This document shows, one piece after another, positions 9,637 to 16,286 of a stretch of DNA of 64,000 nt (position 1 is its first letter; every line of letters starts with the position of its first letter). The position numbers and the translations under genes are program-made. Under the pieces are notes generated by a model. It saw nothing but the letters and a program-made list of their open reading frames with translations. It did no database searches and had not been told where the DNA came from. The DNA comes from Pseudomonas frederiksbergensis. Lineage in GTDB: Bacteria > Pseudomonadota > Gammaproteobacteria > Pseudomonadales > Pseudomonadaceae. The stretch covers positions 248,001 through 312,000 of the forward strand of contig NZ_MOBM01000012.1 in the NCBI RefSeq assembly GCF_003732275.1. Direction: 5' to 3'.

Positions 9637-9757
9637 TGTCGGCGAGGCATCTCCCCCAAGTGTCGCGCCGATGAAGGTACCAAAGGATTGCGTGCCTTTG
9701 TTTTACTCCTAATGGTCTTAACCCGGATTCACCCCCCAGAACCCGGGTTTTTTTTGC
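9637..9757 (+). ncRNA. rgsA: RgsA (P16) small regulatory RNA
   Basis: A non-coding transcript of about 120 nt is predicted between the TetR and TatD genes, the place where I recall rgsA in P. aeruginosa (PA2958.1). Three stems are visible: TCGGCG/CGCCGA (9639-9644/9666-9671), AAGGTAC/GTGCCTT, and a terminator AACCCGG/CCGGGTT (9720-9726/9743-9749) followed by eight T. The single-stranded stretch 9695-9715 is nearly perfectly complementary to the acpP ribosome-binding region of this window. This agrees with reports of RgsA acting on acpP and fis mRNAs. The 5' end is estimated from the -10 element. Identification rests on position, structure and target match. Confidence 0.8.
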
Positions 9758-9781
9758 CTGCGATTCAGCGGCCAAAGCCCG

Positions 9782-9810
9782 GTAGGTGCTGCCGAAGGCT
9801 GCGATCTTTT
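9782..9810. repeat. Solitary REP unit, GCTGCCGAAGGCTGCGATC class
   Basis: GTAGGTGCTGCCGAAGGCTGC followed by GATCTTTT is a third REP family, seen again at 60441 and 60651. It lies between the rgsA terminator and the TatD gene stop. Confidence 0.7.
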
Positions 9811-9816
9811 CTAACG

Positions 9817-10608
9817 TTACACCGATGCTCCGACGTGCGCCAACGGGAACAAACGCTTGAAATTCTCGGTGGTCTGCTCGGCAAACCGCTCGTAGGACTC
9901 ACCTCGCACCATTGCCAGAAACTCCGCTACCTCACGCACGTATTGCGGCAGGTTCGGTTTACCGCGATAAGGGATCGGCGCCAGGTACGGCGAGTCGGTT
10001 TCCACCAGCAACCGGTCAGCCGGCACCTTGCTGGCCACATCCCGCAGGGCATCGGCATTGCGAAAAGTGACAATACCGGACAGAGAAATGTAATACCCCA
10101 TGTCCAGCGCAGCCTTGGCCATCTCCCAGTCTTCGGTGAAGCAATGCAGCACGCCTGCCTGCGGCAGCGCCGCTTCGCGTAGCTGCTCAAGGGTATCGGA
10201 CCGCGCGCCACGGGTATGGATGATCACCGGTTTACCGGTCTGCCCCGCCGCTTGCAAGTGCAGACGGAACGATTCCTGCTGCAATGTTGCCGCTTCCGGC
10301 TCGTAGTGATAATCCAGACCGGTTTCACCGATCGCCACCACCCGCGGATGATTGAGTTCGTGCAACAGCCAATCCAGCGCCGGTGCGGCACCCGGCTGCA
10401 CATCGAGTGGATGCACACCGACCGAACAGTCGACATCGTCGTAACGTTCGGCCAGGGCTTTGACGTCGGCGGCGTTATCGGCGCTGACACCAATGCACAG
10501 AAAGTGCCCTACCCCGCGCGCACGGGCCGCATCGAGCGCGGCATCCAGGGAGCCGTCGTGGGCGGTGAGGTCGAGGCGATCAAGGTGACAATGGGAATCT
10601 ACGAGCAT
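9817..10608 (-). CDS. TatD/YcfH-family metal-dependent hydrolase (DNase)
   Basis: Amidohydrolase-fold nuclease of 263 residues. It has the metal-binding start DSHCHLDRLD, Glu in AIGETGLDYHYE, His in VIIHTRGA, His in VLHCFTED, and Asp in LLVETDSPYLAP, the complete TatD signature set. It corresponds to E. coli ycfH, which also lies next to holB. The family has 3'-5' DNase activity with a proposed role in DNA repair. It is last in the minus-strand run mltG-tmk-holB-pilZ-tatD. Confidence 0.88.
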   Translation of the reverse strand: MLVDSHCHLDRLDLTAHDGSLDAALDAARARGVGHFLCIGVSADNAADVKALAERYDDVDCSVGVHPLDVQPGAAPALDWLLHELNHPRVVAIGETGLDYHYEPEAATLQQESFRLHLQAAGQTGKPVIIHTRGARSDTLEQLREAALPQAGVLHCFTEDWEMAKAALDMGYYISLSGIVTFRNADALRDVASKVPADRLLVETDSPYLAPIPYRGKPNLPQYVREVAEFLAMVRGESYERFAEQTTENFKRLFPLAHVGASV

Positions 10609-10622
10609 AAAAGGGCTGCAAC

Positions 10623-10979
10623 TTACATCGTATGAGTGGGACGGTCGGACTTCAGGGCTCCGGCCAGATGGGTTTCGATTCGACTGCGCGCGGTATTGTC
10701 GCCTTCGTTGAATTGCACGCCAACACCGGCGGCGCGATTGCCCTGAGCACCTTTGGGGGTAATCCAGGTGACCTTGCCGGCGACCGGAATCTTTTCCGGT
10801 TCGTCCATCAGGTGCAGCAGCATGAAGACCTCATCGCCCAACTTGTAGCTTTTGTTGGTCGGGATAAACAGGCCACCGTTCTTGATGAACGGCATGTAAG
10901 CCGCGTAGAGCACGGCCCTGTCCTTGATGGTCAAGGACAAAATGCCATTGCGCGGCCCCGGACTGATGGGTTCGTTCAT
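10623..10979 (-). CDS. pilZ: Type IV pilus PilZ domain protein
   Basis: PilZ-domain protein of 118 residues matching the founding PilZ of P. aeruginosa, which is needed for type IV pilus assembly and works with FimX and PilB. The start at 10979 (MNEPISPGPRNG) has GGAGG spaced 7 bases; an ATG 12 bases further upstream lacks a site. The c-di-GMP-binding RxxxR motif is absent from its N-terminus, as is usual for PilZ itself, which does not bind the nucleotide. It sits 14 bases upstream of the TatD gene and follows holB by 43 bases. Confidence 0.88.
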   Translation of the reverse strand: MNEPISPGPRNGILSLTIKDRAVLYAAYMPFIKNGGLFIPTNKSYKLGDEVFMLLHLMDEPEKIPVAGKVTWITPKGAQGNRAAGVGVQFNEGDNTARSRIETHLAGALKSDRPTHTM

Positions 10980-11022
10980 GTTGACCTCCACTGTCTGATG
11001 ATCAGAGTCTAGTGTCAGACGG

Positions 11023-14675: not shown

Positions 14676-15919
14676 CAGCCAGCGAACCGGCGGAACACCA
14701 GCGAGCCATTGGTACCGCCAAATCCGAAGGAGTTGGACAGCACCACATCGATATCCATGCCACGCGCGGTGTGGGGTACGAAGTCGAGGTCGCAGCCTTC
14801 GTCCGGCTCATCGAGGTTGATGGTCGGCGGTGCTACCTGGCTGTTGATTGCCAGTACGCTGAAAATCGCCTCGACCGCGCCCGCCGCACCCAACAGGTGA
14901 CCGGTCATGGATTTGGTCGAACTGACCGCCAGCTTGTAGGCGTGATCGCCGAACACGGATTTGATCGCACAGGCTTCGGCGAGGTCGCCGGCCGAGGTCG
15001 AAGTGCCGTGAGCGTTGATGTACTGAACCTGATCGCTATTGATCTTCGCATCGCGCAAGGCATTGGTGATGCAACGCGCGGCACCGGCGCCGTCGGCCGG
15101 TGGCGAGGTCATATGGTAAGCATCGCCACTGGTGCCGAAACCGATCAGCTCGGCGTAGATGGTCGCGCCACGGGCCTTGGCGTGTTCCAGTTCTTCGAGA
15201 ACCAGAGCGCCGGCACCGTCGGACAACACGAAGCCATCACGGCCCTTGTCCCATGGACGACTGGCGCGGGACGGCTCGTCATTACGGGTCGACAGCGCGC
15301 GGGAGGCACCGAAGCCACCCATGCCCAGACCACACGCAGCCATCTCGGCGCCACCGGCGATCATCACGTCGGCTTCGTCGTACATGATGTTGCGTGCTGC
15401 CATGCCGATGCAGTGCGTACCGGTGGTACACGCCGTGGCGATGGCGTAGTTAGGTCCCTGTGCCCCCAGATGGATGGACAGGAAACCGGAAATCATATTG
15501 ATGATCGAGCCAGGCACGAAAAACGGAGAGATCCGTCGTGGGCCGGAATCATGCAGCGTTCGGCTGGTTTCTTCGATATTGGTCAAACCGCCAATACCCG
15601 ACCCCATGGCCACGCCGATCCGCTCGCGGTTGGCGTCGGTGACTTCAAGACCTGCGTTACGCACGGCCTGAAAACCTGCTGCCAGACCGTACTGAATGAA
15701 CAGGTCGAGCTTGCGAGCCTCCTTGACCGACAGGTATTCCTCGACATTGAAGCCCTTTACCGAACCGCCAAAACGGGTGGAATAGGCAGAAAGGTCGGTG
15801 TGTTCGATCAGACCAATGCCACTGCGGCCAGCCAGAATGCCCTGCCAACTGCTCGGCACATCCGTGCCCAGTGGCGACAACATACCCATACCGGTGACTA
15901 CGACGCGTCTACGCGACAC
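14675..15919 (-). CDS. fabF: 3-oxoacyl-ACP synthase II
   Basis: Condensing enzyme of fatty-acid elongation, 414 residues. The triad is present: Cys164 (ATACTTGTH), His in NAHGTSTSAGD and His in KSMTGHLLGAAGAVE. I chose the GTG at 15919 (MSRRRVVVTGMGML), preceded by AAAGGAGA. An upstream ATG at 15952 would add 11 non-conserved residues. A terminator-like hairpin lies between it and acpP, so fabF is read by passage through that hairpin or from a nearby promoter. Confidence 0.95.
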   Translation of the reverse strand: MSRRRVVVTGMGMLSPLGTDVPSSWQGILAGRSGIGLIEHTDLSAYSTRFGGSVKGFNVEEYLSVKEARKLDLFIQYGLAAGFQAVRNAGLEVTDANRERIGVAMGSGIGGLTNIEETSRTLHDSGPRRISPFFVPGSIINMISGFLSIHLGAQGPNYAIATACTTGTHCIGMAARNIMYDEADVMIAGGAEMAACGLGMGGFGASRALSTRNDEPSRASRPWDKGRDGFVLSDGAGALVLEELEHAKARGATIYAELIGFGTSGDAYHMTSPPADGAGAARCITNALRDAKINSDQVQYINAHGTSTSAGDLAEACAIKSVFGDHAYKLAVSSTKSMTGHLLGAAGAVEAIFSVLAINSQVAPPTINLDEPDEGCDLDFVPHTARGMDIDVVLSNSFGFGGTNGSLVFRRFAG

Positions 15920-15962
15920 AGCACTCTCCTTTTTCAAATGACGACTTTGCATCAGGCCTAAA

Positions 15963-15998
15963 GAAAAAACCGCACGCCATGATGGCAGTGCGGTTTTT
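15963..15998. terminator. Hairpin between acpP and fabF
   Basis: AAAAACCGCAC (15965-15975) pairs with GTGCGGTTTTT (about 15988-15998), with a further inner GCCA/TGGC stem. It has T-runs on both strands. It lies downstream of acpP and would cut back transcription into fabF, helping acpP to be expressed far more than its neighbours. Confidence 0.8.
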
Positions 15999-16027
15999 CC
16001 ATGACAGCGAGCGACGACTAAAAACTA

Positions 16028-16264
16028 TTACGCCTGGTGGCTGGTAACGTAGTCGATTGCTGCTTGTACAGTAGTGATCTTCTCAGCTTCTTCGTCAGGG
16101 ATTTCGGTCTCGAATTCCTCTTCCAGAGCCATCACCAGCTCAACGGTGTCAAGGGAGTCGGCACCCAGGTCTTCAACGAAGGAAGCAGTGTTGACCACTT
16201 CTTCTTCTTTAACGCCCAGTTGCTCAGCAACGATTTTCTTGACGCGCTCTTCGATGGTGCTCAT
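16028..16264 (-). CDS. acpP: Acyl carrier protein
   Basis: Acidic 78-residue carrier of fatty acyl chains. The phosphopantetheine attachment site is Ser37 in GADSLDTVELVMALEEEF. The gene has its own promoter (16317-16344) and a following hairpin. Its leader contains a site complementary to RgsA that covers AGGAG (16277-16281), so the small RNA should block translation. It is flanked by fabG upstream and fabF downstream, the usual order. Confidence 0.97.
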   Translation of the reverse strand: MSTIEERVKKIVAEQLGVKEEEVVNTASFVEDLGADSLDTVELVMALEEEFETEIPDEEAEKITTVQAAIDYVTSHQA

Positions 16265-16265
16265 A

Positions 16266-16286
16266 CCTTGTTTTCACTCCTAATGG
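16266..16286 (-). promoter_or_regulatory. Predicted RgsA binding site on acpP mRNA
   Basis: The plus strand here reads almost the same as RgsA 9695-9715: ACTCCTAATGG and TTGTTTT are identical, with a single-base shift between them. The acpP leader can therefore form about 20 base pairs with RgsA through one bulge. The pairing covers the AGGAG sequence and ends just before the start codon. Confidence 0.75.

Follow-up and report, generated by a model that had tools for sequence, protein, structure and literature searches.

RgsA and a likely target, the acpP leader, in Pseudomonas frederiksbergensis: predicted pairing across the Shine-Dalgarno sequence

Does the small RNA RgsA of Pseudomonas frederiksbergensis act on the leader of acpP, the gene for acyl carrier protein, with which it has an almost identical sequence in common? 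The question is raised by a 64,000-nucleotide stretch of this genome (assembly GCF_003732275.1, contig NZ_MOBM01000012.1, positions 248,001 to 312,000 of the forward strand), which carries both genes and is referred to as a whole as the window; positions are counted from its first letter. It is very probable that the window holds rgsA together with a likely target in the acpP leader, and that pairing of the RgsA linker across the acpP Shine-Dalgarno sequence would lower acpP translation under stress. RpoS would presumably switch RgsA on, the linker would pair across the Shine-Dalgarno sequence (20 bp, one bulge) and keep ribosomes off acpP, and the synthesis of acyl carrier protein would fall, as reported for P. 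aeruginosa. Control by RpoS, help by Hfq, expression of the RNA and the repression itself are presumed for this species by analogy with its relatives.

RgsA reads CCTTTGTTTTACTCCTAATGG at 9695-9715 and the plus strand reads CCTTGTTTTCACTCCTAATGG at 16266-16286. ACTCCTAATGG is common to both sites and the remainder matches after two one-base shifts (one T, one C); the near-identity described in the initial annotation is thereby borne out, with two shifts in place of one. Since acpP is encoded on the minus strand, its mRNA leader is the complement of this plus-strand site, and the predicted duplex with RgsA, at -27.7 kcal/mol, comprises 20 pairs, including 2 G-U pairs, is interrupted by a single bulged A of the mRNA and has one further pair beyond a mismatch. 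The duplex covers CCAUUAGGAGUGAAAACAAGG, i.e. the Shine-Dalgarno sequence and, except for one base, everything between it and the acpP start codon, in agreement with the pairing of about 20 bases over AGGAG that had been proposed. The acpP leader is weakly folded (z +1.5) and would be ~45 nt long if the promoter-like site upstream of it were used.

The strength of this pairing was compared with that of 726 other leaders of the same genome, drawn from 36 stretches of 20 kb and the window (~0.78 Mb, about a tenth of the genome). Leader starts were chosen by a script and some are wrong, including that of plsX and a frame antisense to acpP; because the script kept the antisense frame instead, acpP had to be scored separately by the same function. 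One stretch spans the middle of a palindromic contig (see below), with a few leaders counted twice, and four mirrored stretches (L438-L441) were dropped. Pairing as good as that of acpP was found for none of the first 330 leaders, 45 of which carry a strong Shine-Dalgarno sequence, and for none of the full set. The acpP leader was first of 727 both on raw energy and with opening costs counted (-16.9), followed in the latter ranking by that of a gene which we take, from its place and sequence, to be fabD (-13.6). Neither dinucleotide shuffling of the acpP leader (2000 shuffles) nor shuffling of the RgsA linker (1000 shuffles) ever gave the energy of the acpP duplex. An earlier accessibility ranking, in which fabD came ahead because the acpP site was forced into a hairpin, was superseded when a shorter site was allowed, and a whole-length RgsA-acpP duplex (-66.7) was discarded, as it ignores the folds of both RNAs. 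The 11-mer CCATTAGGAGT occurs twice in the 7.2 Mb genome (in RgsA and at acpP), compared with four occurrences of the reversed control. Alone, it is no more than chance; what distinguishes the match is its position at the start codon and how long the duplex is.

The identity of rgsA, as initially annotated, was confirmed by a covariance score above the curated cut-off and by its tatD-family neighbour (Table 1). TCAATACT at 9624-9631, upstream of the putative transcript start, agrees, by eye, with 7 of the 8 positions of the published RpoS -10 consensus (T/G)CTATACT. The RNA (9637-9757) is predicted to fold into a 5' stem, the hairpin at 9673-9699, an open linker and a terminator. Within the linker lies the 15-mer ACTCCTAATGGTCTT, which has a single occurrence in its own genome; TTTGTTTT, which flanks this seed and lengthens the acpP duplex, is less conserved than the seed. 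The linker was largely open in the single fold of the window's RgsA, and the motif was more than half unpaired in 63 of 77 motif-bearing homologues, each folded singly. The linker block was likewise unpaired in both consensus folds (58 family sequences and all 78 aligned homologues), which have weak energies; the hairpin at 9673-9699 appeared in the former and was absent from the latter. According to a review citing Lu et al. 2016, residues 71-77 and a site at 141-175 of RgsA are needed. Counted from 9637, residues 71-77 correspond to 9707-9713, inside the seed, although the numbering is uncertain; since positions 141-175 would lie beyond the end of a 120-nt RNA, and so perhaps follow another numbering, the agreement is suggestive only.

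Table 1. Features of the window discussed in the text
Feature	Position	Strand	Basis
RgsA (RF00628) match, promoter region included	9553..9746	+	194.1 bits against a cut-off of 88.4, whole model
Likely RgsA transcript, ~120 nt	9637..9757	+	length from P. aeruginosa and P. fluorescens CHA0 reports; start putative
Hairpin 5' of linker	9673..9699	+	fold of 9637-9757, z -3.2
RgsA side of longest predicted acpP duplex	9696..9717	+	
Linker block ACTCCTAATGGTCTT between hairpin and terminator	9705..9719	+	best-conserved part of RgsA, likely pairing seed
Terminator hairpin and T run	9720..9757	+	fold and sequence
tatD-family gene adjoining rgsA	9817..10608	-	PF01026; same neighbour as published
acpP, acyl carrier protein	16028..16264	-	78 aa, PF00550, reading frame
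acpP leader site CCAUUAGGAGUGAAAACAAGG, Shine-Dalgarno sequence inside	16266..16286	-	sequence and duplex prediction
Promoter-like TTGAAA-18-TACACT upstream of acpP	16315..16344	-	consensus scan, 9/12; 0.5 expected by chance
Presumed fabD, malonyl-CoA:ACP transacylase	17216..18154	-	PF00698
fabD leader site AAGAUCAUUAGGGG	18163..18176	-	14 uninterrupted predicted pairs (2 G-U) with the same RgsA seed

Matches to RgsA were obtained in 198 of 199 genomes of the genus, in 93 of 119 genomes sampled from the family (14 of 19 genera, with 80 above the cut-off) and in 55 of 194 sampled from the order (29 of 96 genera, with 10 above it), the three samples overlapping. Eighty loci were compared in a hand-picked, non-random set (27 from the genus, 33 from other genera of the family, 20 from other families), in which three weak matches without a seed (G200, G253 and G260) are counted among the 60 family genomes. 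ACTCCTAATGGTC is exact in 69 of the 80 (53/60 in the family, 16/20 in other families). Across the genus, the sequence basis of the small RNA-target pair known from P. aeruginosa is widely conserved: of 199 genomes, 160 hold the 28-nt acpP leader with at most 3 mismatches (reversed control, 0). Among the 60 family genomes with an RgsA match, the acpP leader carries CCATTAGGAGT in 19, a form one base shorter in 24 and other forms in 17, and acpP has the strongest leader of the fab cluster in 49 of 55 family regions with data.

The two genes also keep their arrangement. In all 65 regions in which it was found (56 of 60 in the family, 9 of 20 in other families), acpP lies 5.5-8.8 kb from rgsA on the opposite strand; the four family misses include G163, where acpP falls just beyond the stretch, and G200 and G223, where it is on a different contig, and in 11 of the 20 loci from other families acpP lies outside the stretch. 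Given this conserved order, the spacing of 6.5 kb, which the initial annotation had read as a sign of a link, reflects inherited gene order and not a special gene-target pairing.

Several observations weigh against the pairing of RgsA with acpP as a regulatory link in this species. A consensus terminator scan, restricted to loops of 3-8, misses the hairpin at 9720-9757 and instead scores as terminator-like the hairpin followed by TTTT at 9681-9700, which ends just before the seed; if active, it would mark a possible early end and leave RgsA without its seed. The later terminator is favoured because the reported length of RgsA is 120 nt. CC and GG within the window's seed may also pair with each other (two pairs; unpaired probability 0.3-0.4). 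Compensatory change between the RgsA seed and the acpP leader, which the initial annotation had proposed as a test between species, was not seen by eye among the compared loci: the genus acpP variants CCACTAGGAG and CCAATAGGAG face an unchanged seed (e.g. in G018 and G154), and where RgsA itself varies (CTCCTATTGG in family f28; CTCCTAATGC and similar forms in genus g17) the acpP leaders show no corresponding change. For an RNA that has several targets, such co-variation is not a defining trait.

Comparison with genomes lacking RgsA points in the same direction. Fifteen of the 26 RgsA-negative family genomes were used for leaders; one of them keeps CCATTAGGAGT and two keep CCATAGGAGT. All fifteen carry related leaders, one of these being the full CCATTAGGAGTGAAAACAAGG, and the exact 15-base seed was found in 0 of 27 rechecked genomes, 20 of which are family members without an RgsA hit. 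With the seed held fixed, the median energy within the family was -25.1 with RgsA (n=60) versus -22.6 without (n=15; p 0.002, relatedness uncorrected). The longest uninterrupted run was not shorter in the RgsA-negative family genomes (median 8 versus 7 with RgsA) and had a median of 6 in other families, with and without RgsA alike. The corresponding fixed-seed medians in other families were -17.2 with RgsA (n=20) and -12.8 without (n=29; p 0.001, relatedness uncorrected), a difference from which no conclusion is drawn; the order-level AcpP search drew on 29 of 30 genomes, with G321, whose match was cut by a contig end, left out. Outside the family, acpP did not surpass its neighbours, having the strongest leader in 2 of 5 regions. 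Since RgsA-negative family genomes keep related acpP leaders, much of the complementarity stands without RgsA. The proposal that the same link operates in this species is upheld as far as the presence of RgsA, its predicted largely open linker and the capacity of the latter to cover the Shine-Dalgarno sequence are concerned, and qualified by the absence of visible co-variation and by these lineages, which keep much of the site without detectable RgsA.

A rival account holds that, for the most part, a generic anti-Shine-Dalgarno sequence meets the strong Shine-Dalgarno sequence of a highly expressed gene, with acpP unregulated here and other targets keeping the seed. Such an account draws on the related CCAT..AGGAG leaders in family genera without detectable RgsA, on a seed that does not track changes in acpP and on the chance frequency of the 11-mer alone. 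It is nevertheless unlikely, because acpP surpasses all 726 other leaders, as well as the 45 with a strong Shine-Dalgarno sequence among the first 330, because acpP repression has been reported in P. aeruginosa, and because cognate RgsA-acpP pairs are slightly better than permuted ones (-24.1 versus -23.5 kcal/mol; 57 pairs, 16 of 5000 permutations as low, relatedness uncorrected). The ~21 nearly common bases in opposite orientation, 6.5 kb apart, might instead be copies, the RgsA linker having arisen by an inverted duplication of the acpP leader within the cluster. This origin is highly improbable: the similarity ends, by eye, at ~21 bases, no long flanking similarity was noticed in the 80 loci read by eye, without an alignment aimed at it, and the lower conservation of TTTGTTTT beside the seed also speaks against a copy. 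Moreover, other families possess the seed, whereas their acpP leaders (CCATAGGAGT in 1 of 20, CCATTAGGAGT in 0 of 20) mostly have only AGGAG or TAGGAG in common with it, the reverse of what copying from acpP predicts.

Likely repression of acpP by RgsA stays the preferred reading. ACTCCTAATGGTC reads as an anti-Shine-Dalgarno-like element, present even where acpP shares little beyond AGGAG or TAGGAG. Because the acpP leader varies and the seed is nearly fixed, the long acpP pairing appears to be the younger of the two. The acpP leader may have been partly complementary at first owing to its strong Shine-Dalgarno sequence and have gained the long duplex later in the Pseudomonadaceae; this duplex looks like a refinement of that family, strongest in this genus. 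Several targets together probably maintain the seed, namely acpP, a site in the early coding sequence of fis and perhaps, in part of the genus, fabD.

For fis, repression by RgsA is reported in two papers citing Lu et al. 2016, by base pairing or at translation, with Hfq. A seed site at the Shine-Dalgarno sequence was not found in 30 fis leaders. The early coding sequence of fis is predicted to pair with the RgsA linker at -21.2 in this genome; of 30 genomes, seven reached -18.9 or better at this site, each of them an RgsA-bearing member of the family; other RgsA-bearing genomes gave -9 to -17, and two RgsA-negative ones -14.4 and -13.1. All of these energies were computed with the linker of the window's RgsA.

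The fabD leader is perhaps a new, second predicted target of RgsA in part of the genus. When up to 3 mismatches are allowed over 24 nt, its site is retained in 112 of the 199 genomes of the genus, against 0 for the reversed control; by eye, a middle pair is broken in 7 of the 112. The energy of the fabD pairing was reached by 6 of 1000 linker shuffles, compared with 0 of 1000 for acpP. On raw whole-linker energy, fabD was fifth of 330 and outside the best six in the larger leader set; it rises to second only with opening costs counted. As a genus- or family-wide target, fabD was rejected: -18.9 or better was reached in only 13 of 27 genus regions, and the median over all 61 regions (-13.5) resembles that of other fab leaders. 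The leader of plsX, for which 14 of 27 genus regions reached a raw energy of at least -18.9 in strength, was rejected as well, being unremarkable with its TTG start and opening costs (-1.3; 428 of 726 better), and those of fabG, fabF and pabC were ordinary for RgsA pairing with opening costs counted. In passages of two papers that name both RgsA and fabD, fabD figures as a reference title or a PCR normaliser, and no link is reported there. Another leader, GATTAGGAGAATCATC (L449 17980-18593), was sixth of 726 before acpP was added, and the gene downstream is presumably, judging from its protein, an iron superoxide dismutase. Greater sensitivity to peroxide has been reported when RgsA is lost.

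A bolder reading, which we hold only tentatively and consider rather unlikely, sees RgsA as an order-wide stress RNA with a nearly invariant, start-blocking seed that, in this branch of Pseudomonas, would shut fatty-acid synthesis at FabD and AcpP at once. If true, both the loading of malonyl groups onto acyl carrier protein by FabD and the AcpP carrier would be hit, the two proteins being encoded in the gene cluster that ends beside rgsA.

RgsA-like loci occur well outside Pseudomonas. The 19-base form of the seed was present in at least 116 stretches of named genomes; the 80 of these matches listed include Microbulbifer, Haliea and other Halieaceae, Endozoicomonas, Zooshikella and Atopomonas. 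Among eight such stretches scanned with Rfam, six match RgsA at E < 1e-4: Atopomonas over the cut-off (116.6 bits), and Zooshikella (69.5), Endozoicomonas (69.5 and 67.8), Pseudohalioglobus (41.6) and Microbulbifer (36.7 bits) below it; one Parahaliea and one Haliea stretch gave no RgsA match reaching E 0.01. A weak literature search did not find RgsA together with Microbulbifer nor, among the matches listed, with Endozoicomonas, Cellvibrio, Haliea or Azotobacter. The seed was present in 2 of 369 class genomes (P. frederiksbergensis itself and one relative), a draw that held few genomes of its own order, and the 15-mer in 48 viral-contig stretches, which by a rough reckoning is about chance for so large a collection. 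Some loci depart from the usual form: L097 and L100 (genus g6) and L089 are weak RgsA matches without the CTCCTAATGG seed despite a nearby tatD-family gene, and L098 and L099, also of g6, carry it. In family f28, CTCCTATTGG replaces CTCCTAATGG in all three loci (L139-L141).

Two further observations concern the window and the genome. An rne-II leader (RF01756, 281.5 bits) lies at 23762-24029. Contig C1 of the same genome (G000; 1,421,354 bases) seems to be its own reverse complement, with matches in mirrored pairs and 92 of 99 sampled 200-mers of L433 found in the reverse complement of L441. This palindrome is likely an assembly artefact, which could explain the contamination value of 9.64%.

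In P. aeruginosa and P. fluorescens, RgsA is reported as a 120-nt RNA dependent on RpoS and GacA and adjoining tatD. Hfq CLIP-seq (crosslinking and immunoprecipitation with sequencing) in P. aeruginosa is reported to give a strong peak at its 3' end. The RNA described here is likewise comparable to RgsA/P16 of P. syringae DC3000 (PMC3709562), an orthologous RNA that is reported to be RpoS-regulated and to interact with Hfq; in that study, IntaRNA predicted PSPTO_5535, and the discussion does not name acpP. The closest counterpart is RgsA/P16 of P. aeruginosa, which belongs to the same RNA family (RF00628), has a tatD-family neighbour and, according to papers citing Lu et al. 2016, represses acpP by base pairing or at translation and with Hfq; that RgsA is reported to act on acpP there had been stated in the initial annotation. 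As this repression is published, the core of the present reading was already known and is met here in another genome; new are fabD as an additional predicted target and the wider spread of RgsA.

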